NCBI RefSeq assembly: GCF_014217685.1
Contig: NZ_CP043653.1
Location: forward strand, 686,419-750,418
Direction: 5' to 3'
Source of the DNA: Glaciihabitans sp. INWT7
Lineage (GTDB): Bacteria; Actinomycetota; Actinomycetes; Actinomycetales; Microbacteriaceae
DNA: 64,000 nucleotides
The notes beneath the pieces are model-generated. The model saw nothing but the letters and a program-made list of their open reading frames with translations, searched no databases and was not told the DNA's origin. The translations under genes and the position numbers were made by a program. Positions 16,377 through 62,279 of the stretch are shown here, piece by piece; within the stretch, counting starts at the first letter, position 1, and every line of letters starts with the position of its first letter.

Positions 16377-16468
16377 GCGCAACTCCTGCAATGTGCGGCG
16401 GGGCCGGCGCGGGTGCCCGGATTTGCGGGTGACCATGGCCGGTGCGCAAAAATCTGCAGGAGTTATGC
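16377..16468. repeat. GCATAACTCCTGCA inverted-end element, copy 1 (92 bp)
   Basis: Left end GCGCAACTCCTGCA (two mismatches from consensus), right end TGCAGGAGTTATGC, 64-nt GC-rich interior. It lies between the ilvC terminator and a DUF998 gene in the same direction. The right end contains AGGAG and an ATG in frame with that gene. Confidence 0.85.
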
Positions 16469-23349: not shown

Positions 23350-23441
23350 GCATATCTCCTGCAACCCGAGCCCGGCCGCGGGGTCGCGCCCGGGAATCCG
23401 GGGTGCGCCGCACTGCCACGAGCAATCTGCAGGAGTTATGC
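23350..23441. repeat. GCATAACTCCTGCA inverted-end element, copy 2 (92 bp)
   Basis: Left end GCATATCTCCTGCA (one mismatch), right end TGCAGGAGTTATGC (perfect), interior 64 nt. It lies between the phoA PHO box and the 3' end of moaE. Confidence 0.88.
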
Positions 23442-34960: not shown

Positions 34961-35016
34961 CGTCACGCCTCCGAGTCCATCACACTTCGCGAAACCCGTC
35001 TGAAACGCCCATTCCG

Positions 35017-35022
35017 TAGGCT
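35017..35022 (+). promoter_or_regulatory. Candidate -10 box for pucG
   Basis: TAGGCT lies 42 nt before the pucG ATG. Two GAAAC words 11 nt apart lie just upstream (34991-35006), over the expected -35 position, which lacks a good consensus and may need an activator. Confidence 0.35.
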
Positions 35023-35064: not shown

Positions 35065-36282
35065 ATGCAGAGCTACCCGATCGATCCCCCGCAGCGGCTG
35101 CTGATGGGCCCCGGCCCCATCAATGCCGATCCGCGCGTGCTCCGGGCGATGTCCGCCCAGCTGGTTGGCCAGTACGACCCCGCGATGACGGCCTACATGA
35201 CCGAGACCATGGAGCTCTATCGGGGCGTATTCCGCACCGAGAATGAAGCCACCCTGCTGGTCGATGGAACCTCTCGCGCCGGTATCGAGGCCGCGCTCGT
35301 CTCTCTCATCGAGCCGGGCGATCGCGTGCTCGTGCCGATCTTCGGACGCTTCGGCCACCTCCTTCGCGAGATCGCCCAGCGTTGCGGAGCCGAGGTGCAC
35401 GCGATCGAACGCGAGTGGGGCACGGTCTTCACCCCGGCAGAGATCGAAGCCGCGATCCTTTCCACGAAGCCGAAGATCCTCGCCATCGTGCACGGTGACA
35501 CCTCCACGACCCTCGCCCAGCCCCTCGACGAGGTCGGCGCGATCTGTGCCAAGCACGGGGTGCTCCTCTACACCGACACGACGGCATCCCTCGGCGGCAA
35601 CGAGTTCGAGACCGATGCCTGGGGAGTGGATGTCGCGACCGCCGGCCTGCAGAAGTGCCTCGCCGGCCCCTCCGGCAGTGCACCGATCACGCTCTCGGCG
35701 GCGGCGGTGGACGTGATCGACCGCCGCAAGAGCATCGAGGCGGGCATCCGATCCGAGGGGGATGCGGTGCTGGCGAGCCCGATCCGCTCCAACTATTTCG
35801 ACCTCGCGATGATCATGGACTACTGGGGCCCCAAGAGGCTCAACCACCACACCGAGGCCACGACGATGCTCTACGGCGCCCGGGAGTGCGCGCGGATCCT
35901 CATCGAGGAGGGCATTCCCGAGGCGATCGAGCGTCACCGTCTGCACGGCTCGGCGATGGTCGCCGGTCTCGTGGGGCTCGGATTCGACCTGTTCGGTGAC
36001 CAATCGGTGCGCATGAACAACGTGGTCGGTGTCGAGATCCCCTCCGGGATCGACGGAGACGGCGCGCGCGCGACCATGCTCAGTGACTACGGTATCGAGA
36101 TCGGCACCTCCTTCGGTCCGTTGCTCGGCCGGGTCTGGCGCATCGGCACAATGGGCTACAACGCCCGGCGCGACACCGTGCTCACCACCCTCGCGGCTCT
36201 CGAGCAGGTGCTCCGCCGCGGTGGTGTCGCGGTCACGGCGGGCAGCGGAGTCGGCTCCGCCCTCGACTTCTACGGTTCATGA
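35065..36282 (+). CDS. pucG: (S)-ureidoglycine-glyoxylate aminotransferase-like PLP enzyme
   Basis: 405 residues of the class V aminotransferase (AGXT) family. N-terminal LLMGPGPINADPRVLRAM, DTTASLGG for the cofactor aspartate region, and the PLP lysine in GLQKCLAGPSG. Next to allC and urate-pathway genes it most likely takes ureidoglycine plus glyoxylate to glycine and oxalurate, as in Bacillus PucG; serine-glyoxylate aminotransferase is the alternative. CGAGGA precedes ATG. Confidence 0.85.
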   Translation: MQSYPIDPPQRLLMGPGPINADPRVLRAMSAQLVGQYDPAMTAYMTETMELYRGVFRTENEATLLVDGTSRAGIEAALVSLIEPGDRVLVPIFGRFGHLLREIAQRCGAEVHAIEREWGTVFTPAEIEAAILSTKPKILAIVHGDTSTTLAQPLDEVGAICAKHGVLLYTDTTASLGGNEFETDAWGVDVATAGLQKCLAGPSGSAPITLSAAAVDVIDRRKSIEAGIRSEGDAVLASPIRSNYFDLAMIMDYWGPKRLNHHTEATTMLYGARECARILIEEGIPEAIERHRLHGSAMVAGLVGLGFDLFGDQSVRMNNVVGVEIPSGIDGDGARATMLSDYGIEIGTSFGPLLGRVWRIGTMGYNARRDTVLTTLAALEQVLRRGGVAVTAGSGVGSALDFYGS

Positions 36283-38968: not shown

Positions 38969-39060
38969 GCATAACTCCTGCAATCCGGGGCCTTCACGGC
39001 GACGTTCCCCGTAATCTCGGGGTCGTGCCGAGAACCGGCGCCGCATTGCAGGAGTTATGC
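38969..39060. repeat. GCATAACTCCTGCA inverted-end element, copy 3 (92 bp)
   Basis: Both ends perfect (38969-38982 and 39047-39060), interior 64 nt with an internal CCCC/GGGG hairpin near its centre. It lies between the convergent uraH and guaD 3' ends. Confidence 0.92.
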
Positions 39061-44121: not shown

Positions 44122-44212
44122 GCATAACTCCTGCAGTGTGCCCCGGGCCGCGAGAAGTGCCCCGTGTCTGCGGGCACCCCTGCTGGCTGCCCCCAGATTG
44201 CAGGAGTTATGC
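44122..44212. repeat. GCATAACTCCTGCA inverted-end element, copy 4 (91 bp)
   Basis: Both 14-bp ends perfect, interior 63 nt. An extra GGAGTTATGC copy of the outer right end follows at 44217-44226. It sits between two minus-strand PPOX genes. Confidence 0.92.
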
Positions 44213-44241: not shown

Positions 44242-44829
44242 TCAGCCCGGGAGGTAGGCGACGGTCCAGCCGCCGGAGGTCGCGCGGTATTCGACCCGGC
44301 GACTCGGGGCATCCGATCCACTCGACCAGAAGGTCATACGGGTGGGTCGCACCAGGAAGCCGATCCAGGTCTCGGGCTGGGAGAAGATGGGCTCGGATGC
44401 CCCGTCGGTGTGCGCCTCGGTGAAAGTCGCCCAGCGGTCGCGACGCTCGTCATCCGGCAACTGTGCGAACTCGAAGGTGTTCTGCCAGGCCAACTGCTGG
44501 AGGAAGGGCGAGCGTGCCTGATAGGCGGCGGCGATCTCGGGCGCCGGGGCGACCTCAGCGCGCCCCTGCACCACGAGTTGCTTGGTGAACCCCGGCCAGA
44601 GGAAGGTGAGGGCGACGGCGGGGTTCGCGACGATCGCGGCCGCTTTGCGCGAGAGCGCGTCGGTGTGGAAGTAGAAGCCCTGGGAGTCCCACTCGCTCAA
44701 CAGCACCGTGCGGGCATCCGGTTCCCCGGTGATGCTCACGGTCGAGAGGTTCATCTGCGGGCGTTCGGGCTCGTCGTTGCCGGGCAGCCACTCTTCGACC
44801 ACCTGCCAGGGGCTCTGCGGCTCACTCAT
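44242..44829 (-). CDS. Pyridoxamine 5'-phosphate oxidase-like flavoprotein
   Basis: 195 residues similar in plan to PdxH: PQMNLSTVSITGEPDARTVLLSEWDSQGFYFHTDALSRKAAAI, WPGFTKQLVVQGRAE, and a C-terminal RVEYRATSGGW segment. The usual PdxH C-terminal RL-P motif is replaced by AYLPG. It may oxidise another amine; true PNPO is possible. Its start overlaps the creatininase stop by 4 nt. Confidence 0.78.
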   Translation of the reverse strand: MSEPQSPWQVVEEWLPGNDEPERPQMNLSTVSITGEPDARTVLLSEWDSQGFYFHTDALSRKAAAIVANPAVALTFLWPGFTKQLVVQGRAEVAPAPEIAAAYQARSPFLQQLAWQNTFEFAQLPDDERRDRWATFTEAHTDGASEPIFSQPETWIGFLVRPTRMTFWSSGSDAPSRRVEYRATSGGWTVAYLPG

Positions 44830-45608
44830 GGTCGGTGCCGGAATCGGGCGATCTCATCGAGCGCCGAGACGCCGTTCGCTACGGCACGGTCGAAGATCAC
44901 CCGACCGTGCTCCGCGGTGGCACCGGTCGCGTCGCCGATGACGCCTACGGGCCCGAAGTCGTTCGACAGCCAGCCGAAGCTCACGGGGCCGCCGTTGAAC
45001 TTGATGTGCTTCAGGTCAGCCATGTGGTCGGGAACCCACCGGTCGGCCTGCGTCATGTCCACGAGGTCGGGCCGCAGGTGCAGGATCATCGACGTCTCCT
45101 CGTGGCCCCCATGGATGCCGAAGCCGCGTTCGTCCGGACCCACGTCGCCGTCTCCCGCGATGATTCCGGTGCCCATGAGGAAGGTGCGCAGGCCGAAGCG
45201 TCGCCGCAGCTCGCGGAGGGCCACCTGAAGGAGGGCGATGTTTCCGCCGTGCCCGTTGTAGAACACGAGGGTCTTCGCGGGGGTCGCGGCCACCGAGCGT
45301 CCGATGTCGACTACCGTCTGCATGAGGGTGTCCCAGGTGAGCCACACGGTGCCGGGCGCCCAGTGGTGTTCGTCCGACTTCGTGTAGGCGAGTGGCGGAA
45401 GCAACCAGACATCCTGGCCGGCGGATGCCGCGGACTCGACGACCGCCCGCCCGATCAGGTCGGCCATCAGGAAGTCGGTCGAGAGCGGCAGGTGTGGACC
45501 GTGGTGTTCGATCGCTCCGGTCGGCAGCACGAGGATGGAGTCCTCGGTGAGCGCGGCACTGGCGGCCGGCCCGGACAGGTTGACCAGGTCACGGGACGAG
45601 ACGCTCAT
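44826..45608 (-). CDS. Creatininase-family amidohydrolase
   Basis: 260 residues with the metal-binding signature of the family: LPTGAIEHHGPHLPLSTDF (Glu-His and Asp), NGHGGNIALLQ, and IHGGHEETSMIL (His/Glu). Members hydrolyse creatinine, formamidopyrimidines or related cyclic amides, or act as peptidases. Here it is operon-linked to an ABC transporter and a cytosine-deaminase-like enzyme, pointing to an N-heterocycle ring opener. Confidence 0.88.
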   Translation of the reverse strand: MSVSSRDLVNLSGPAASAALTEDSILVLPTGAIEHHGPHLPLSTDFLMADLIGRAVVESAASAGQDVWLLPPLAYTKSDEHHWAPGTVWLTWDTLMQTVVDIGRSVAATPAKTLVFYNGHGGNIALLQVALRELRRRFGLRTFLMGTGIIAGDGDVGPDERGFGIHGGHEETSMILHLRPDLVDMTQADRWVPDHMADLKHIKFNGGPVSFGWLSNDFGPVGVIGDATGATAEHGRVIFDRAVANGVSALDEIARFRHRP

Positions 45609-46924
45609 GAGACCTTGGCTCCGGTGGACACCGACGGGGCGACGAGCTTGCCCGGGTTCAGCAGCCGCTGCGGGTCGGTCGTCGCCGCGAGGGCCGCGGT
45701 GCGCTCCGGCTCGAAGTCCACGAACCACTGGTGCGGATTGTGGTATCCGACGCCCAGTTCGGTGAGCTTCTCGAAGCCCGCGAAGACCTCCTCGGCGCTG
45801 GAGTAGACGCCGGCGAGCATGCCGATCGGGCGCTCGTGCTGCGCCTCGATGTGCAGCATGCCGCCGGGGTACACCGCGTGCACCTCGTCGATGCGATCGA
45901 CGAGCGCGTCGCCGCTGACCTCCACGTGGAAGTAGCGGTCGGGGTAGACCTTCTGCAGAAACTCGATCGGGTGGTTGTAGGACATCATGCTGATCCTCAT
46001 CGTGGCCTGCGCGCCTTCACGCACGTCCTCGACCCGGCCCGCGGCCGATTCGACCAGGGCCGTCGCCGCGGCGACCGTCGAGAGATCGAGGATCGCCCGC
46101 AGGCTCGCCCGGTCGGCGGGAATGGCCGGATCCGGCGGCAAGGCGTTGGCCAGGGTCGCCAGGTCCGCCGAGACCAGGCGGGGCGTGGGTTCGAGCGCGC
46201 CGATCTCCCGGATCACGGAGATCGCCTGCTCGAAGGTGTCGAAGCTCGCGAAGAATCCGCGCCAGTCCTGCAGCGGTTCGGTGACGACGGTGGCCCGGGC
46301 GATGATCCCGGCGGTGCCGTAGTTGTGCACGTAGGGCTGGGCGGCCTCACCGGCGACGTGCACGAGCGAGGCATCCTCCACCGCGTGCACCACGTCGAGG
46401 GCGGCGACGAAGCCCTGACTGTTGGAGCCGTGCTTGATCGATCCGGTGCCGCCGGAGCCCCCGGAGAGGAAGCCACCGAGCGAGGAATTGGCCGTGGACG
46501 GATACATCAGGATCTGCTGGCCGGCCTTGTTTGCCGCCTGTTCGAGCGCTGCCATCGATGCGCCGGCCTCCGCGGTGATGAACCCGTCGCCGACCTCGGT
46601 GATCGCCCGGGCGCGGGACATATCGAGCACGAGTCCGCCGGCCATCGGGATGGCCTGGCCGTAGTTGCCGGTGCCCTTGCCGCGCGGGGTGATCGGGATG
46701 CCGTGGCGCACGGCAGCCGCGACGGTCGCGGCGATCAGCTCCGCGCTGGCCGGGTAGGCCACGAGCTCCGCGAGCCCGAGAGGCAGCTGCTCCTTGATCA
46801 CGGGGGAGAGGTGTGCGCCGTCGGTGGAGGCCCGCTGCCGTGCGGCCAGTTCGACGCTGACGCCGCGGTCGCCGAGCAGTTCGCGCAACTCGGCCTCGAG
46901 TGCGGCGATGGGGGAGTCGTTCAT
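45605..46924 (-). CDS. FAD-binding (GlcD/VAO-type) oxidoreductase
   Basis: 439 residues with a PCMH-type FAD domain: PRGKGTGNYGQAIPMAGGLVLDMSR, the ITAEAG and YPSTANSSLGGFLSGGSGGTGSIKHG loops, and the C-terminal STDPQRLLNPGKLV of the glycolate oxidase group. Oxidises an alcohol, hydroxyacid or amine; substrate unknown. It overlaps the creatininase start by 4 nt. Confidence 0.85.
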   Translation of the reverse strand: MNDSPIAALEAELRELLGDRGVSVELAARQRASTDGAHLSPVIKEQLPLGLAELVAYPASAELIAATVAAAVRHGIPITPRGKGTGNYGQAIPMAGGLVLDMSRARAITEVGDGFITAEAGASMAALEQAANKAGQQILMYPSTANSSLGGFLSGGSGGTGSIKHGSNSQGFVAALDVVHAVEDASLVHVAGEAAQPYVHNYGTAGIIARATVVTEPLQDWRGFFASFDTFEQAISVIREIGALEPTPRLVSADLATLANALPPDPAIPADRASLRAILDLSTVAAATALVESAAGRVEDVREGAQATMRISMMSYNHPIEFLQKVYPDRYFHVEVSGDALVDRIDEVHAVYPGGMLHIEAQHERPIGMLAGVYSSAEEVFAGFEKLTELGVGYHNPHQWFVDFEPERTAALAATTDPQRLLNPGKLVAPSVSTGAKVS

Positions 46925-46963: not shown

Positions 46964-47752
46964 TCAGTGCATGACCATTCCGCCGGTGACGTTGATCGCC
47001 TGTCCGGTGAGATAGTCGGCGTCGGGGGACGCGAGGAACAGGGCGACGCCCGCGACATCCGCGGGCTCGCCGAGTCGGCCGAGCGGGGAGTATCCGCACC
47101 AGGTGGCGATGTCCTCGTCGGTGCGGGTGGCGGCACCCATGTCGGTGAGCACGTAGCCGGGGCAGAGGGAGTTGACCGTGATGCCGTGGGTTCCCCACTC
47201 CAGCGCGGCCACGCGGGTCAGCGCGACGACAGCGGCCTTCGAGGCGGCGTAGTGACCTTCGCCGGCTCCGCCGGTCTTCGCTGCCATGCTGGCGAGGTTG
47301 ATGATCTTGCCCCCGCAACCGGCCGCGATCATCGCCCGGGTGGCCACCTGCATGGTGGTGAGCATGGCGCGGGCGTTGACCGAGAACATCTCGTTCCAGT
47401 CGGTCACGGTCACCTCGAGCAACGGGGAGAAGCGCAGGATGCCGGCGCTGTTGACGAGGATGTCGACGCCGCCGAGGTGGTCGATCGCGCGGGCGGTGGC
47501 GTCTGCCGTGTCCAGGGGGTCGACCAGATCGACCGGGATGAAGGTGCCGCCGACCTCGGAGGCCAGCCGGGTGCCCTCCTCGACCAACCGGTCGAGAACG
47601 ACGATCCGCGCACCCTCCGAGGCGAAGCGGCGCGCGATCTCGCCGCCGATTCCCCGAGCGCCACCGGTGACGACGACACGCTTCGTGAGAAGTCGCTGTC
47701 CGGCGAGCCGCGCGGGGCGGGCCAGGGTCGTCGTCACCAGTGGATCACTCAT
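46964..47752 (-). CDS. SDR-family oxidoreductase (FabG-like)
   Basis: 262 residues: VTGGARGIGGEIARRFA for NAD(P), NSAGILRF, catalytic serine in NLASMAA, YAASKAA for Tyr/Lys, and the C-terminal TGQAINVTGGMVMH. Part of the unknown catabolic operon, 7 nt after the substrate-binding protein gene. Confidence 0.87.
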   Translation of the reverse strand: MSDPLVTTTLARPARLAGQRLLTKRVVVTGGARGIGGEIARRFASEGARIVVLDRLVEEGTRLASEVGGTFIPVDLVDPLDTADATARAIDHLGGVDILVNSAGILRFSPLLEVTVTDWNEMFSVNARAMLTTMQVATRAMIAAGCGGKIINLASMAAKTGGAGEGHYAASKAAVVALTRVAALEWGTHGITVNSLCPGYVLTDMGAATRTDEDIATWCGYSPLGRLGEPADVAGVALFLASPDADYLTGQAINVTGGMVMH

Positions 47753-47759
47753 GGGTGGT

Positions 47760-48935
47760 TCAGAATCCGATCGATGTGTCGAGGAATTCGTTGGTGAAGA
47801 GGTCGGCCGCCTTGAGGCCGGTCTTCGGCGCGGAACCCGAGGCGGTGAACAGCGGGGTGTCGATGTCGATGACCTTCTGCACGCGGGCCTCATCCATGTC
47901 GCCGACATAGGCGTTGGATCCGTTCGAGGCGATCTTGAGCTTCTTCATCTGGCTCACGCCGAAGTCCGCGACCTTCTCGGAGTAGACCCAGCCGTTGTTG
48001 AACGCCGTCACGAGGTCGGTGACCAGCTTGTTGGTGGCGGCAGGCTTGGAGATGTAGTCCACATCGGCCTGCTGCAGCACCGGCACGAGCTTCTTGAGGC
48101 ACGGGCTGAGGGTGGAGAGCTCCGACGAACGAACCGACATCGCCTCGGGATAGATGGGGTATCCGGTGTCGTTGATCAACTGGAAGTTGACGGGCTTGCC
48201 CCAGGCCGAGACCTCGTTCTGGTAGATGTACGGCTCGGCGGTGGCGAAGCCCTGCTGGCCGTCCTTGCCCTTGGCGGTGACGAACTTCGCCGGGGTGCCG
48301 TCGTAGGCGCCATCGGTCTGGGCCTCGGGAAGGATGCCCGATCCCTGCAGGTAGCCCATGTACGCCGCGCCCTGGAAGTAACGCACGACTCCGCCGTCAT
48401 CCTTCAGCGCGGTGGCGAGATCCTTGATGGTCTTGACCTTGGGGTAGGTCGCCGGGTCCCACATGATCATCTGCGGGGAGATGTCGTTCTCGGCGAAGAC
48501 CGCGGTCGTCGGCAGGCTCGCGGACAGCTGCACGGCCTCGTCGGTGGAGACGTAGCCGAGGGTGATGTCCTTGTCCTTGTACATCTCCGAGCTCACCGTC
48601 GAGAATCCGATGGCCGGTCCGCCGGACCGGATCTCCACCTTCACGCCGGTGGACTTGCCACTGGCGTACAGGTCGCCGCTCACGGACTTCTTGTCGGCGT
48701 TGATCACCGGGTTCGGTCCGAGCAGCTGGTAGAGGTGACCGTGGTCGGCCTCCGGGTTCCAGTCGGTCTGGATGGTGACGGTGGCCGGGCAGACACCGGA
48801 GAGGTCGACGGCGCCTGCTGCGGCGGTCGGGGCTGTACTGCTGCTCGGCGACGCACTGGCACAGCCGGCCAGGGCGATTCCTGCAGCGAACACCATGCCG
48901 ACGGCGATGGTGGAGCGGACTGCTGTTTTGTGCAT
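47760..48935 (-). CDS. ABC transporter substrate-binding lipoprotein (NMT1/THI5-like)
   Basis: 391 residues with a lipoprotein signal: hydrophobic core then LAGC (lipid Cys near residue 25). The mature start, VTIQTDWNPEADHGHLYQLLG, resembles THI5/NMT1-type proteins that bind thiamine-precursor pyrimidines, riboflavin or other small N-compounds. It is paired with the permease and ATPase upstream. The ligand is probably the feedstock of this operon. Confidence 0.85.
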   Translation of the reverse strand: MHKTAVRSTIAVGMVFAAGIALAGCASASPSSSTAPTAAAGAVDLSGVCPATVTIQTDWNPEADHGHLYQLLGPNPVINADKKSVSGDLYASGKSTGVKVEIRSGGPAIGFSTVSSEMYKDKDITLGYVSTDEAVQLSASLPTTAVFAENDISPQMIMWDPATYPKVKTIKDLATALKDDGGVVRYFQGAAYMGYLQGSGILPEAQTDGAYDGTPAKFVTAKGKDGQQGFATAEPYIYQNEVSAWGKPVNFQLINDTGYPIYPEAMSVRSSELSTLSPCLKKLVPVLQQADVDYISKPAATNKLVTDLVTAFNNGWVYSEKVADFGVSQMKKLKIASNGSNAYVGDMDEARVQKVIDIDTPLFTASGSAPKTGLKAADLFTNEFLDTSIGF

Positions 48936-49008: not shown

Positions 49009-49881
49009 TCAGCCGAAGTCGTACCACTTGCCGATGGCCAGTCGGCTGAGCCATCCGAAGAGCAGGAAGACGGCGACGCCGAGCAGCGATGCGGTGAGGA
49101 TGGCCGCGTAGGTGCCCGCGCCGTTCAGTCGGGAGGTCGAGACCTGGATCAATACGCCGAGCCCGGGCGTTCCCCGCTGGAAGAACTGGTCCCCGACGAT
49201 CGCGCCGATGACCGAGAGCCCCGCGGCGTTGCGCAGCCCAACGAAGATCGACGGGAGGGCCGCCGGAAACTGCAGCTTGGTGAGGGTGGTCCACTTGCTC
49301 GCGCCCTGGAGCTTGAACAGTTCGCGCTGGGCGAGATCCGTCGACTGAAGTCCGAAGAGCGTGTTCGACACCATCGGGAAGATCGAGATCATCACTGTCA
49401 CGATCACGCGGGAGAGGAATTCGTAGCCGAACAGTGCGCCGATCAGCGGCACCAGCGCGAGGATCGGGATGCACTGCAGGATCACCGCATAGGGGAACAG
49501 GGATCGCTCGACCCACTTGGCTTGCGCCATCAACGTCGCCCAGACGACACCGATCACGATCGCGATCACGAGCCCGGTGAGGGCGACCTGGGTGGAGTTG
49601 CCGAGGTCGGCCACGAGCTGCGGGGTGAACAGTGGGTCCGCGAACGCGGCCTTCACCACGAGGTGCGGGTAGGGCACGAGGAAGGCGAGCTGCTGGCTGG
49701 CGTAGTAGTTCGCCACGAGATACCAGAGCCCGACCAGCACCGCGAGAACGGCGAGCGGCGGCCACCATTGATTGGCGCGCCGGGCGTAGACCCGGTTGAT
49801 GCGCGCCTGCCGGAGCGCACGAGGGGAGAGAGAATTTCCGGCGCCCGCGCCGGAAGCGATTCCCGAGCCTGCGACAGACAT
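49009..49881 (-). CDS. ABC transporter permease (SsuC/ThiX type)
   Basis: 290 residues, about six spans, with the EAA loop KLQGASKWTTLTKLQFPAALPSIFVGLRNAAG (Gly-containing contact helix). N-terminal 35 residues are polar. It shares a base with the stop/start junction of the ATPase gene. Confidence 0.88.
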   Translation of the reverse strand: MSVAGSGIASGAGAGNSLSPRALRQARINRVYARRANQWWPPLAVLAVLVGLWYLVANYYASQQLAFLVPYPHLVVKAAFADPLFTPQLVADLGNSTQVALTGLVIAIVIGVVWATLMAQAKWVERSLFPYAVILQCIPILALVPLIGALFGYEFLSRVIVTVMISIFPMVSNTLFGLQSTDLAQRELFKLQGASKWTTLTKLQFPAALPSIFVGLRNAAGLSVIGAIVGDQFFQRGTPGLGVLIQVSTSRLNGAGTYAAILTASLLGVAVFLLFGWLSRLAIGKWYDFG

Positions 49882-50672
49882 CAGTGGTGCCCCTCTCGCA
49901 GCGCGTGGGACACTTCGCCGACCAGCTCCGCGAACTCCGCGGTGAAGCGGATGTCCGGATCCCGCGGCATCGGGAACGGCACGTCGAAGGTGCCGACGAT
50001 CGATCCGGGGCGGCCGGACATCACGATGACCTTGGTGGAGAGGTAGACGGCTTCTGAGACCGAGTGGGTGATGAAGAGGCCGGCGAACTGCTTCTCGACG
50101 AAGAGCTTGAGAAGCTCGTCGTTCAGTCGCTCGCGGGTGATCTCGTCGAGGGCGCCGAATGGCTCGTCGAAGAGGAACAGCTCCGGCTCGAGGGTGAGAG
50201 AGCGGGCGAGCGAGGTGCGCATCTTCATCCCGCCGGAGAGCTGCTTGGGCAGGTTCTTCTCGAAGCCAGAGAGGCCGACCAGTTCGATCGCCTCTTTCGC
50301 CTTCGCCTGACGTTCTTTCGGCTTCACGCCGTTGAGTTCGGCGAGAAGCTCGACGTTGTCCTGCACCGTGCGCCAGGGAAGCAGCGTCGCGTCCTGGAAG
50401 ACATAGCCGATGCGCTTCGTGTCGACCTCTGCCGTGCCCTCAGAGGCGGTTTCGAGACCGGAGGCGATTCGCAGGAGGGTGGATTTTCCGCAGCCGGAGG
50501 GTCCGACGACGGTGACGAACTCCCCCCGGTTCACGGTGAGGTCGATGCCGCTGAGGGCGACGGTGCCGTTGGGGAACTGCATCGCGACATTGCGGAAGTC
50601 GAGCAGTGTGCCACTGGATGCAGCGCTGCGAGACGGTTTCATGAGTGCTGGGGCGGACATGCTCAGCATCAC
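49881..50672 (-). CDS. ABC transporter ATP-binding protein (SsuB/TauB type)
   Basis: 263 residues with Walker A GPSGCGKST, Q-loop FQDATLLPW, signature LSGGMKMRTSLARSL, Walker B LFLFDEPFGALDE and H-loop ITHSVSEA. Start taken as ATG 50672, overlapping the deaminase-like stop; ATG 50660 is also possible. Confidence 0.9.
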   Translation of the reverse strand: MMLSMSAPALMKPSRSAASSGTLLDFRNVAMQFPNGTVALSGIDLTVNRGEFVTVVGPSGCGKSTLLRIASGLETASEGTAEVDTKRIGYVFQDATLLPWRTVQDNVELLAELNGVKPKERQAKAKEAIELVGLSGFEKNLPKQLSGGMKMRTSLARSLTLEPELFLFDEPFGALDEITRERLNDELLKLFVEKQFAGLFITHSVSEAVYLSTKVIVMSGRPGSIVGTFDVPFPMPRDPDIRFTAEFAELVGEVSHALREGHH

Positions 50673-51943
50673 CTCGTTTCGGCTAGGGAGGGGGCGGGGG
50701 AATCTACGGCGACGCGAGGCGCGGCAACGTCGTAACTGACGGTGCTCTGCGCCACGAGACGGCCGGCGTGGATGACGAAGCGGTCCGCTGAGGCGTTGGC
50801 GATGACATCCGAGAGGTTGGTCCCGCGCACGGCGAGGAGCTCGGCCGCTGCGCCGACCTCGACCCCGGCGAGAGGAAGCGACATCACCGAGCGAGCCCCG
50901 GAGCTCACGGCCGCGTACGCCTCGTCGAGCGTGAGGTGCCCGGCGGAGACGAGCAGTGAGGCGGTCTCCAGCGCATCGCTGCGCCCCACCGGGTTGAACG
51001 GATCGCGCACGTTGTCGGCTCCGGCCGCGACGCGCACCCCGGCATCGAGCAGTGCCCGCAGCGCGGTGAGCCCGCGCGGGGTGCCGACCGGATGCTGCCA
51101 GCCCTGCAGGTAGAGGTTGGTGATGGGCAGCGAGATGATGCCGAGATCGCTCGCGAGCACCTCGGTGATGACGGCGGCGAGTTTTGTCGGTTCGAGAGTG
51201 CCCAGGCGCACGCAGTGGCCCGCGGATGCCGGCACCGTCCAGTCGCGAACGAGCCGCGCGTACTCTCCGAGGGTCGGTGCGCCGGTGAGGCTCTCGTCGG
51301 TGTGGATGTCGCTGCCGACACCGCGTCGCTCGGCGATGGCGATGAGGCGGCGGAGGTCGGCGAGCGGATCTTCGGCCAGGTGCGGGGCGCCGCCCACCAG
51401 GTCCACGCCGAGGTCGAGGGCTTCATCGACGAGTTCGCTTGGCACGAACGGCCCGGCGAGCGCGACGAGTTCGATGTCCATCAGGTCGCGGAGTTCCTCG
51501 CGCACGCGCACGAGCGCGCGCACTCCGCGCATCGGGTTGTCGCCCACGAGCATGTCAACATGCGTGCGCACCGCGGTGGTACCCTGTCGCAGAAGCAGCA
51601 TCGCCGCCTGGCGAGCCCGCTCGGCGATGCTCTCGACCGTCATCACCGCGGTGTAGTCACGCCAGGATTCGATCGCGAGCTCCAGGTCACCCATCGGCGG
51701 ATCGATGAGATCCCACGACAGGGCCTTGTCGAGGTGTGCGTGGGGTTCGGCGGGAGCCGTCAGCAGCAGGAAGCCGGTCAGGTCGAGTGTCGAGCCGTCA
51801 TTCTGGATCTCGGTGCTGTCGGCGAGAGTCGCCGCGGGGAACACGCCGCTCACCGTGCCGCCCTCGAGCGTGACATCCACTCGCGAGCCATCGGGAAGAG
51901 TTGCATTCGTCAGCTGGCGGATGCTGCGGGGCAGGGATGACAC
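50669..51943 (-). CDS. Cytosine-deaminase-like amidohydrolase
   Basis: 424 residues of the CodA branch of metal-dependent hydrolases: PAEPHAHLDKALSW for the first His pair, GTTAVRTHVDM, DIHTDE and SAGHCVRLG for later His, and AAGADNVRDPFNPVG for the catalytic aspartate. It would deaminate a cytosine-like ring or hydrolyse a related heterocycle. GTG 51943 has GAGGAAGG upstream. First gene of the operon, divergent from the XRE-cupin regulator. Confidence 0.85.
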   Translation of the reverse strand: MSSLPRSIRQLTNATLPDGSRVDVTLEGGTVSGVFPAATLADSTEIQNDGSTLDLTGFLLLTAPAEPHAHLDKALSWDLIDPPMGDLELAIESWRDYTAVMTVESIAERARQAAMLLLRQGTTAVRTHVDMLVGDNPMRGVRALVRVREELRDLMDIELVALAGPFVPSELVDEALDLGVDLVGGAPHLAEDPLADLRRLIAIAERRGVGSDIHTDESLTGAPTLGEYARLVRDWTVPASAGHCVRLGTLEPTKLAAVITEVLASDLGIISLPITNLYLQGWQHPVGTPRGLTALRALLDAGVRVAAGADNVRDPFNPVGRSDALETASLLVSAGHLTLDEAYAAVSSGARSVMSLPLAGVEVGAAAELLAVRGTNLSDVIANASADRFVIHAGRLVAQSTVSYDVAAPRVAVDSPAPSLAETR

Positions 51944-52009
51944 GGTGCGGCACCTTCCTCGAACGACGGGGGTGGGCGACCATCGCACCGGTGAGTTGGT
52001 CGCTGAAAA

Positions 52010-52028
52010 ATGTTGATATCGTCAACAT
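52010..52028. promoter_or_regulatory. Inverted repeat in the XRE/deaminase divergent region (candidate operator)
   Basis: ATGTTGATATCGTCAACAT: perfect 7-bp arms and a 5-nt spacer, AT-rich compared with its surroundings, 66 nt from the deaminase-like start and 133 nt from the regulator. A likely binding site for the adjacent XRE-cupin protein. Confidence 0.55.
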
Positions 52029-52049
52029 CATCGAATCTAGGGATGCCCC

Positions 52050-52087
52050 GTTTCCGACATGTAACGGCATCGTTTCCATCTATTAAG
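52050..52087 (-). promoter_or_regulatory. GlnR-type nitrogen box
   Basis: On the minus strand the words CTTAA-n6-GAAAC-n6-GTTAC-n6-GAAAC repeat every 11 nt, matching the actinobacterial GlnR pattern gTnAC-n6-GaAAC-n6-gTnAC-n6-GaAAC in three of four words exactly. It points toward the deaminase/ABC operon, 107 nt from its start. Confidence 0.65.
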
Positions 52088-52161: not shown

Positions 52162-52746
52162 GTCACTACCGTCGATTCCGCGATTGACCTGCAAGCCGAA
52201 CGAATCGGCATCCGCATCCGTCAACTGCGTCGAGCCAGAGGACTAACTTTAGTCCAGCTCGCGGTGAGCGCAGACCTGTCGCACCCCTTCCTGAGCCAGC
52301 TGGAGCGCGGCCGGGCGCGTCCGAGCATGACCTCGCTGGAGAAGATCGCCCGCGCCCTCGGCAGCAGCCAGCTCGAGCTCATGGCCGCGGCGGAGGATGA
52401 CGCGGCCGACCAGTCGGACATCGTGGTGGTGCACGCCGACCAGGGCACGCGAGGCCCCTACGGCGACGGGGAGGGACGCCTGCTCGTGCACGGCCGGCGA
52501 CGGTTCCACCCCATGGAGTTCCGCGGCTCCAACCAGGTGCCCGGCGAGTTCTACGAGCACGAGGGCGACGAATTCCTTCATGTGGTCTCCGGGGTCGTGA
52601 TCGTGGATTTCGAGGGTCGCGAATCTTCGGTGCTGAGCGCCGGCGACTCCGTCTACTTCGCGGGCGGCATCCGTCATCGGTGGCATGCCGCCGAACCGGG
52701 CGGCTACCGGCTGTTCGTCGTGAAAGAGAAGCCGGAGTCGCGATGA
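52162..52746 (+). CDS. XRE-family regulator with cupin domain; no normal start codon
   Basis: About 194 residues. The HTH (AERIGIRIRQLRRARGLTL, SHPFLSQLERGRARPS) is followed by a cupin (VPGEFYEHEGDEFLHVVSG, GDSVYFAGGIRHRWHA) that senses a small molecule. The frame is open from 52138 but has no ATG, GTG or TTG before GTG 52264, which would delete the first HTH helix. AGGAGG (52151-52156) sits 5 nt before a GTC codon (52162) exactly where the family would begin with GTG-Thr-Thr. Either the start has mutated or a rare start is used. A TTA codon is also present. Confidence 0.7.
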   Translation, partial: VTTVDSAIDLQAERIGIRIRQLRRARGLTLVQLAVSADLSHPFLSQLERGRARPSMTSLEKIARALGSSQLELMAAAEDDAADQSDIVVVHADQGTRGPYGDGEGRLLVHGRRRFHPMEFRGSNQVPGEFYEHEGDEFLHVVSGVVIVDFEGRESSVLSAGDSVYFAGGIRHRWHAAEPGGYRLFVVKEKPESR

Positions 52747-53684
52747 GTTCGCACGAGACAGAGTTCGACGCCATCGTGGTCGCCCGCACGCAGGTCGCCG
52801 ACTCGATCGACGTCTTCGAAATCGCGCGCTCCGATGCCTCATCGCTGCCGCACTGGCAACCGGGCGCGCACATCGACCTCGTGCTGCCCTCGGGCGACGA
52901 ACGCCAGTACTCGCTGCTTCCTGCGCCGGTGCCGGATGCCCCGACGTGGCGCATCGCCGTATTGCGGGAGCCGACGGGCCGGGGCGGTTCGGTGTGGCTT
53001 CACGACGCGCTCGCGGTGGGTGACACGATCCGGGTTCGGGGTCCGCGCAATCACTTCGAATTCTCGCCGTTCCCCGGCTCTCCCGTGCTGCTGCTTGCGG
53101 CCGGGGTGGGCATCACGCCGATCGCGTCGATGGCACGCGCGGCTGCGGCCTCCGGCATCCGCTACGAGCTGCACTACTCGGGGCGATCCCGGTCTGCCCT
53201 CGCACTGCTCGACGAGATCGGGGAGGCGACGCTCCATCTCAGCGACGAGGGCACGCGCGTGGATCTCGCGGAGCTGCTCGGCTCGCTCGACCCGATGGCC
53301 ACGATCTACGCGTGCGGGCCCACCCGGTTCATCGAGGCTGTCGAGGCCGCCGCGGGCGGGCATCCGCTGCACGTCGAGCGCTTCGAAGCCAAACCGCTGG
53401 CGGCTCCGGTGTTCGAGGGCGCCTTCGAGGTGGAGCTTGCCCTCAGCGGCGAGACCCTCACCGTGCCGCCGGACCGGAGCATCCTCGAGGTGGTGGAGGA
53501 GGCTGGCGTGTTCGTGCTGTCGAGCTGCCGCGAGGGCACCTGCGGCACCTGTGAGACGCCGGTTCTGGAGGGCGAGGTCGACCATCGCGACTCGATCCTC
53601 ACGCCCCTCGAGCAGGAGCAGAATTCCGTGATGTACATCTGCGTCTCGCGGGCGGCCTGCCCGAGGCTGGTGCTGGAGCTCTAG
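52743..53684 (+). CDS. PDR/VanB-type flavin reductase with C-terminal 2Fe-2S ferredoxin
   Basis: 313 residues: FMN/FAD barrel (RQYSLLPAPV), NAD site (LLAAGVGITPIASM, YACGPTRFIEAV) and a C-terminal plant-type ferredoxin with cysteines in SSCREGTCGTC and one near YICVSRAAC. Such reductases feed Rieske or other oxygenases, but no oxygenase lies in the window. It overlaps the XRE-cupin stop by 4 nt. Confidence 0.9.
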   Translation: MSSHETEFDAIVVARTQVADSIDVFEIARSDASSLPHWQPGAHIDLVLPSGDERQYSLLPAPVPDAPTWRIAVLREPTGRGGSVWLHDALAVGDTIRVRGPRNHFEFSPFPGSPVLLLAAGVGITPIASMARAAAASGIRYELHYSGRSRSALALLDEIGEATLHLSDEGTRVDLAELLGSLDPMATIYACGPTRFIEAVEAAAGGHPLHVERFEAKPLAAPVFEGAFEVELALSGETLTVPPDRSILEVVEEAGVFVLSSCREGTCGTCETPVLEGEVDHRDSILTPLEQEQNSVMYICVSRAACPRLVLEL

Positions 53685-53736: not shown

Positions 53737-55010
53737 ACCCGCTCTGCCAGCGCCGCCACTAGTTCGCGTTCGTCGGCATCGACCAGTTGGTAGTCCCTAA
53801 CGACCACCCGTCCGGCCACGACCACGTGTTTCGGGCGGCGCCCGGGATTCGCCCACAGCAGGCCGGCCACGGGATCCGCGACGCCGGAATCGGCGACCCC
53901 CGACACGTCCCAGACGCACAGATCCGCGGCGGATCCGGCACGGAGGGTGCCGAGCTCGGCACGGCCGAGCCCGGCGGCTGAGCCAGCCATCGCCATGGCC
54001 AGCACCTCTCGCGCCGCGATCGGCGGCCCGACGAGGGGCGCGACCTGCATGGCGAGCCGGGCATCCGCCAGCAGGTGTCCCGCATCGTTGCTCCCGCCGC
54101 CGCTGGTGCCGAGGCCCACGACGATGCCGGCGGACCTCAGCGCCGCGACCGGCGCGATCCCCCACCCCATCGGAAGGTCGCAGCCGGGCGCGTGGGTGGC
54201 CGTGATGCCGGATGCCGCGAGCCGCCGGATCTCCTCGCCGGTCACGTCGCAGAGGTGGGCGAGTGTCACGCCCGGCTCGAGCCAACCCCAGTCCTCGAGC
54301 AGGTCGATCGGTCTTCTGCCGTACTTCTCCAGGGCGATCGCGACATCCACCTGCTCGTTGGCTTGCGTGCGCCGCCGCAGCCCGTGCTTCGCGGCGACCT
54401 CGGCGAACAGCTCGAAGGTCTCCCGACTGTCGCTGTGCACTCCGGCCGGACCGACGGCGAGCTGCAGCATCCCTTCGCCGGTGCGGGGGAGCAGCGCCTG
54501 CACGATGGCCTCGGCCGAGCTCGCGGCCTCCTGCGGATCGTCCCGCGCGGATCCCCGCACGAAGACCAGCCGGCCGCCGAGGGCGCGTGCGGCGTCCGCT
54601 GTCGCGGTGGCGATGGCCACCGAATCTGCGCCGCTCGGCCAGGTGAGGTGATGATCCGCGACCGTCGTGACGCCGCAGAGCAATCCTTCGGCAACGCCCA
54701 CGGACGCCGCGACCGCTGCGAGCTCGGCGTCGACGCCCGCTCGGCCGTAGGCCGCTGCCATGGTGGGCAGCCAGTCGCGCATCGCCACCCCACGCGTGCC
54801 GGGCAGGGTGCGGAAGGCGGACTGCAGCAGGTGGTGGTGCGCATTGACGAGTCCCGGCGTGACGACGCATCCGCTCGCATCGAGGGTCTGGGCGTTCTCG
54901 CCCGGCATCGGTTCATCGGTCGCGACCACGCCGTCTCGCAGCACCAGGTCGCCATGACGTTCGGTCGCTTCGTCGACGAGGATCCGGGTCGCGCCGGTGA
55001 TTGTGAGCAT
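53724..55010 (-). CDS. 8-oxoguanine deaminase-like amidohydrolase
   Basis: 428 residues of the ATZ/TRZ-like amidohydrolase group: GLVNAHHHLLQSAFRTLPG for the first metal His pair, GVTTVADHHL, HAHLCD-like LAHLCDVTGEE for the later His, and GTSGGGSNDAGHLLADAR where related deaminases have DGSASND. Beside xdhC, 8-oxoguanine to urate is the best guess. The gene's last codons are repeat-derived. Confidence 0.78.
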   Translation of the reverse strand: MLTITGATRILVDEATERHGDLVLRDGVVATDEPMPGENAQTLDASGCVVTPGLVNAHHHLLQSAFRTLPGTRGVAMRDWLPTMAAAYGRAGVDAELAAVAASVGVAEGLLCGVTTVADHHLTWPSGADSVAIATATADAARALGGRLVFVRGSARDDPQEAASSAEAIVQALLPRTGEGMLQLAVGPAGVHSDSRETFELFAEVAAKHGLRRRTQANEQVDVAIALEKYGRRPIDLLEDWGWLEPGVTLAHLCDVTGEEIRRLAASGITATHAPGCDLPMGWGIAPVAALRSAGIVVGLGTSGGGSNDAGHLLADARLAMQVAPLVGPPIAAREVLAMAMAGSAAGLGRAELGTLRAGSAADLCVWDVSGVADSGVADPVAGLLWANPGRRPKHVVVAGRVVVRDYQLVDADERELVAALAERVPVA

Positions 55011-55075
55011 GGTGATTTTCTAGCACCCGCGTGTGTCCGGCACGTGACATCCCGCCGGCACCGCCGTGCCCTGTG

Positions 55076-55156
55076 GCATAACTCCTGCAATCTGCCTCCC
55101 GGCGAGGAGGATTGGGTCGGAATCGGCCCTGTGCCGGTCAATTGCAGGAGTTATGC
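55076..55156. repeat. GCATAACTCCTGCA inverted-end element, copy 5 (81 bp)
   Basis: Both 14-bp ends perfect, interior 53 nt. It lies in the divergent control region between the deaminase and xdhC genes. Confidence 0.92.
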
Positions 55157-62198: not shown

Positions 62199-62279
62199 GC
62201 ATAACTCCTGCAGAATCCCGGCCAGAGCCCCTTCCGCCGGGATTCTGCCCCCACAGCCGGCGGGCTGCAGGAGTTATGC
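62199..62279. repeat. GCATAACTCCTGCA inverted-end element, copy 6 (81 bp)
   Basis: Both 14-bp ends perfect, interior 53 nt. A second, inner inverted repeat AGAATCCCGGC/GCCGGGATTCT adds 11 bp near the left end. It lies in the doxX-serA divergent region. Confidence 0.93.

Follow-up and report, generated by a model that had tools for sequence, protein, structure and literature searches.

A conserved GlnR box and a local operator-like palindrome form a predicted two-input promoter of an amidohydrolase/ABC transporter operon in Glaciihabitans sp. INWT7

Results

The upstream DNA of an uncharacterised catabolic operon in the 64-kb window (the whole stretch of Glaciihabitans sp. INWT7 DNA that was analysed) contains an array of four GlnR words at positions 52050–52087 on the minus strand, recognised by pattern, matrix and ortholog alignment. 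As a whole, the explanation that we consider very likely from the sequence is that GlnR activates a leftward promoter from this box, that an XRE-cupin protein represses the same promoter at a nearby palindrome, and that the operon probably serves nitrogen supply. The minus-strand sequence of the box (52087–52050) is CTTAATAGATGGAAACGATGCCGTTACATGTCGGAAAC. Its second, third and fourth words, GAAAC (52072–52076), GTTAC (52061–52065) and GAAAC (52050–52054), match the GlnR pattern perfectly, and the first word, read as CTTAA (52083–52087), has two mismatches. The earlier note had placed a box with three of four matching words at this position, which is confirmed by position, mismatch count and statistics. 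It had also read the first word as CTTAA followed by a 6-nt spacer, a register in which every spacing is 6 nt. These letters are present, but the reading is one base off, because the first word conserved in the family is TTAAC with a 5-nt spacer, corresponding to TTAAT (52082–52086) in the window.

A chance resemblance in intergenic DNA would be conceivable given the poor first word, and also given the behaviour of single boxes genome-wide. GTNAC-n6-GAAAC occurs 23 times in the genome compared with 8 for a control pattern, and since many of these matches fall within open reading frames, a single box will often be a chance match. The statistics of the double box argue against such a resemblance. 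With up to three mismatches allowed, the box is the sole match to the four-word pattern in the window, where 0.20 matches are expected by shuffling. A pattern search of the 3.48-Mb genome for double sites with at most two mismatches returned three, and the reversed control pattern at the same threshold returned no match in the whole genome. The best of the three lies upstream of glnA, the gene for type I glutamine synthetase, and our box ranks second. The third, in L017, is flanked by genes for a LacI regulator and a sugar-binding protein and may be a chance match. Scoring with a GlnR matrix had been set beforehand as a possible refutation of the site. The matrix has ten columns and was built from 39 sixteen-base sites of a ChIP study in S. 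venezuelae (PMC3087709); it was applied to the window and to simulated sequences, with pattern searches used for the genome-wide comparison. The downstream half of the box, GTTACATGTCGGAAAC, scores 15.0 compared with a median of 12.9 for the training sites. The double score of the box is 21.7, a 9-bit lead over the next-best double site in the window (12.8), and it also exceeds the top double score of 16.3 found in twenty simulated 64-kb first-order Markov sequences. Together with the presence of an exact box in 51 of 79 orthologous promoters (see below), these values make chance an extremely improbable explanation.

The genome encodes a GlnR ortholog at L001:1054–1770, which matches the solved chains 8hih (E=1.5e-81) and 8hig (E=4e-77) and has the known recognition-helix stretch FGGTRTVDVHVRRLRAKLG in common with both. 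Within the family Microbacteriaceae, to which the window belongs, a close GlnR relative is encoded in 376 of 400 genomes, and all 74 genomes bearing the amidohydrolase belong to these 376 GlnR-positive ones, as judged by comparing the lists by eye. The known core targets of GlnR carry the words of the box in the same genome. The glnA promoter has TAGCGT exactly 10 nt downstream of its last GAAAC, and amtB has GTAAC-n6-GAAAC about 140 nt before the gene start. GlnR-like words, including a promoter-type match, are found on both strands at L157:1426–1566, a region from which a glutamine amidotransferase gene and a glutamine-synthetase-like gene diverge. The box could in principle be used mainly by another OmpR-family regulator of the MtrA, PhoP or AfsQ1 type, with GlnR playing a minor part. 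In Streptomyces nitrogen genes MtrA competes with GlnR, PhoP sites overlap GlnR sites and AfsQ1 also binds nitrogen promoters. Matches to the OmpR-type DNA-binding domain number 14 in the present genome, and one of them resembles MtrA by inspection. These regulators may bind the box in addition to GlnR. As the main user of the box such a regulator is improbable, since the promoter of glnA in this genome likewise has GAAAC as its second words and an array with the 10-nt gap, and a review calls GlnR decisive at nitrogen genes.

The predicted −10 element of the operon, TAGATT (52034–52039, minus strand), lies exactly 10 nt past the last GAAAC, the same geometry as in glnA. To follow this arrangement across species, orthologs of the gene that opens the operon were taken from 80 contigs of named species and whole genomes of the family, giving 79 usable upstream regions. 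An exact GTNAC-n6-GAAAC is found within 300 nt upstream and on the same strand in 51 of the 79 (related loci, so that the counts are not independent), whereas the opposite strand and the reversed pattern each gave no exact match in these regions, and only 0.3% (10 of 3264) of the remaining 300-nt windows from these loci contain the pattern. GAAAC and the first TANNNT after it are 10 nt apart in 50 of 50 orthologous promoters, again from related loci. As a guard against circularity, a second alignment of 29 promoters with less than 75% mutual identity was anchored on the downstream palindrome alone. Its consensus reads tTaACAc..gGaAAcgg.cgCGTtAC..G.cGGAAACg.G.c.tcCgTAG.tTc....A, then TGTTGA...cATCAACATT; the GlnR words are conserved while the spacers are variable, and this alignment defines the TTAAC register with its 5-nt spacer. 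The conservation has exceptions: the promoters of L107, L136 and L149 contain no recognisable box and score poorly, and the a-words, which are the first and third of the array, are degenerate in Agreia and Curtobacterium.

Because the box sits between divergent genes, GlnR might instead act on the divergent XRE-reductase unit or repress the leftward operon; GlnR is able to repress as well as activate, and exceptions to the usual orientation are known. The direction in which the GAAAC words point and their constant distance of 10 nt from a conserved −10 element favor leftward activation, which leaves this alternative with only a small probability. We therefore infer a positive sign of regulation for the leftward operon.

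A perfect palindrome, TGTTGA-n5-TCAACA (52011–52027), lies over the predicted start site, some 7 nt past the −10 element. It occurs without mismatch once in the whole genome. This second, local control site and its XRE-cupin regulator were overlooked in the earlier note. The regulator gene is divergent (52162–52746, plus strand) and is followed by a ferredoxin/FAD/NAD reductase gene (52743–53684, plus strand). In its reading frame before the helix-turn-helix there is no ATG, GTG or TTG, and a GTC with Shine-Dalgarno spacing at 52162 is the likely, non-canonical start predicted from the sequence. At the aligned start position the XRE-cupin orthologs (L071–L150) have GTC, GTT, ATC or ATT, with ATG in the Subtercola loci. 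Across the 80 loci, palindrome and divergent XRE-cupin gene are both present in 58 and both absent in 16, with the gene alone in five and the palindrome alone in one. In L071–L073 (contigs titled Frigoribacterium, with amidohydrolases 85–87% identical to ours) the GlnR words are kept in the absence of both the XRE gene and the palindrome. The co-occurrence of palindrome and gene, together with these three loci, indicates that the palindrome is probably the XRE-cupin operator and that the GlnR box is distinct from it. The words of the box could otherwise be seen as part of the local XRE-cupin operator, as the two elements adjoin at a near-constant distance. The palindrome tracks the XRE gene and the box does not, and the persistence of the box where gene and palindrome are absent led us to reject this very improbable reading. 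In the upstream region of L126 (Arthrobacter) the palindrome is present twice in tandem.

The operon lies entirely on the minus strand. Its first gene (50669–51943, with a GTG start at 51943 that appears preferable to one at 51988) encodes a cytosine-deaminase-like amidohydrolase and is followed by genes for an ABC transporter ATPase (49881–50669), an ABC transporter permease (49009–49881) and the probable substrate-binding protein of the transporter (47760–48935). The last of these has no Pfam or NCBIfam match; its assignment relies on gene position and on a lipoprotein-like signal at the N terminus. Further downstream are a short-chain dehydrogenase (46964–47758), an FAD-binding oxidoreductase (FAD_binding_4; 45605–46924), a creatininase-family amidohydrolase (44826–45620) and a PNPOx-family flavoprotein (44242–44829), which is probably the last gene of the unit. 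The first amidohydrolase bears only a distant likeness to cytosine deaminase (best solved relative at E=1.9e-29) and falls under every NCBIfam cut-off, so that its family matches do not name a substrate.

The surrounding DNA offers context for the function of the operon. The neighborhood holds an 8-oxoguanine-deaminase-like gene and an XdhC-family factor, together with genes at approximately 35–42 kb that we take, from reading their translations, to be ureide and uric-acid genes, and genes at 56–60 kb that in the same way we take to be xanthine-dehydrogenase-like. A second GlnR-like promoter, GAAAC-n6-GAAAC-n10-TAGGCT (34991–35022, plus strand), is placed approximately 43 nt ahead of the start of the ureide operon at 35065. 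The earlier note had regarded the box as support for use of the operon's substrate as a nitrogen source. Such use is plausible from context because of the C–N hydrolases of the operon, the neighboring purine and ureide genes, the second GlnR-like promoter, and the purine, hydantoin and allantoin genes among the GlnR targets of M. smegmatis.

Two other features of the window were observed. The sequence GTCACGTGCCGGACAC-n10-TAGAAA (55017–55048, minus strand) directly precedes the 8-oxoguanine-deaminase-like gene that starts at 55010; if this promoter is real, the transcript of that gene would be leaderless. The sequence TTGCAGGAGTTATGC forms six inverted pairs in the window with arms approximately 50–62 nt apart (16377–16468, 23350–23441, 38969–39060, 44122–44212, 55076–55156 and 62199–62279), amounting to 12 copies compared with 0.04 expected.

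Discussion

The earlier note placed the operon under nitrogen-starvation control by GlnR, and such control is supported, at the level of sequence, by the matrix score, the GlnR ortholog, the same words at glnA, amtB and the glutamine-synthetase-like gene, the conservation of the words and the fixed gap to the −10 element. In the mechanism that we propose, the four words would stand in for a −35 element and would each take up one GlnR DNA-binding domain, the domains following one another head to tail as far as the last word, which ends 10 nt short of the −10 element TAGATT; GlnR would recruit RNA polymerase under nitrogen limitation. Transcription would then proceed leftwards through the amidohydrolase/ABC transporter operon from 51943 to approximately 44242. 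The XRE-cupin protein, bound to the palindrome at the start site, would repress until its presumed ligand is present, and the operon would probably draw on a purine- or pyrimidine-like compound to supply nitrogen. Activation by GlnR combined with repression by the XRE-cupin protein would thus have the operon expressed when nitrogen is short and the substrate is present. Since the upstream DNA of the operon holds both a conserved GlnR site and a probable local repressor site, nitrogen scarcity most likely turns the operon on.

In PhoB-type promoters the regulator box replaces the −35 element, and direct repeats with an 11-nt period end about 10 nt before the −10 element; the promoter described here differs in its words, GAAAC and GTTAC, and in its regulator. 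A closer likeness is to GlnR-activated actinomycete promoters such as glnA, amtB, nas and ure, with which it shares the a-b-a-b order of four words, the 11-nt period, an OmpR-type GlnR whose recognition helix contains the same stretch and, with glnA of this genome, a gap of 10 nt ahead of the −10 element. Unlike these promoters, it has a first spacer of 5 nt in the family and a putative local repressor operator over the predicted start site. The arrangement of the words fits the GlnR activation complex described in a review (PMC10704036), in which four sites are occupied by four GlnR DNA-binding domains that are arranged head to tail and touch RNA polymerase. The operon is absent from the listed GlnR targets of S. 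venezuelae. In M. smegmatis, GlnR sites lie upstream of purine and allantoin permeases, hydantoin-type genes and a putative allantoicase (PMC3662644); here, in contrast, the genes are those of a cytosine-deaminase-like amidohydrolase, an ABC transporter and a partner of XRE-cupin type, and searches of the M. smegmatis regulon paper turned up neither a creatininase nor a cytosine deaminase. A literature search for GlnR control in Microbacteriaceae returned no relevant study.

The operon is a probable new target of the known GlnR regulon with a predicted two-input promoter, and not a new kind of system. In a wider and tentative reading, to which we give slightly less than an even chance, a conserved two-input promoter, with GlnR activating in place of a −35 element, the XRE-cupin protein repressing at the start site, a first spacer of 5 nt and a regulator with non-canonical starts, controls an undescribed pathway for uptake and hydrolysis of nitrogen heterocycles across Microbacteriaceae and neighboring actinobacterial families. 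With glnA for internal comparison, the precise geometry of the promoter is usable for regulon prediction in Microbacteriaceae, and nitrogen limitation provides a named condition under which the function of this uncharacterised catabolic operon can be tested.
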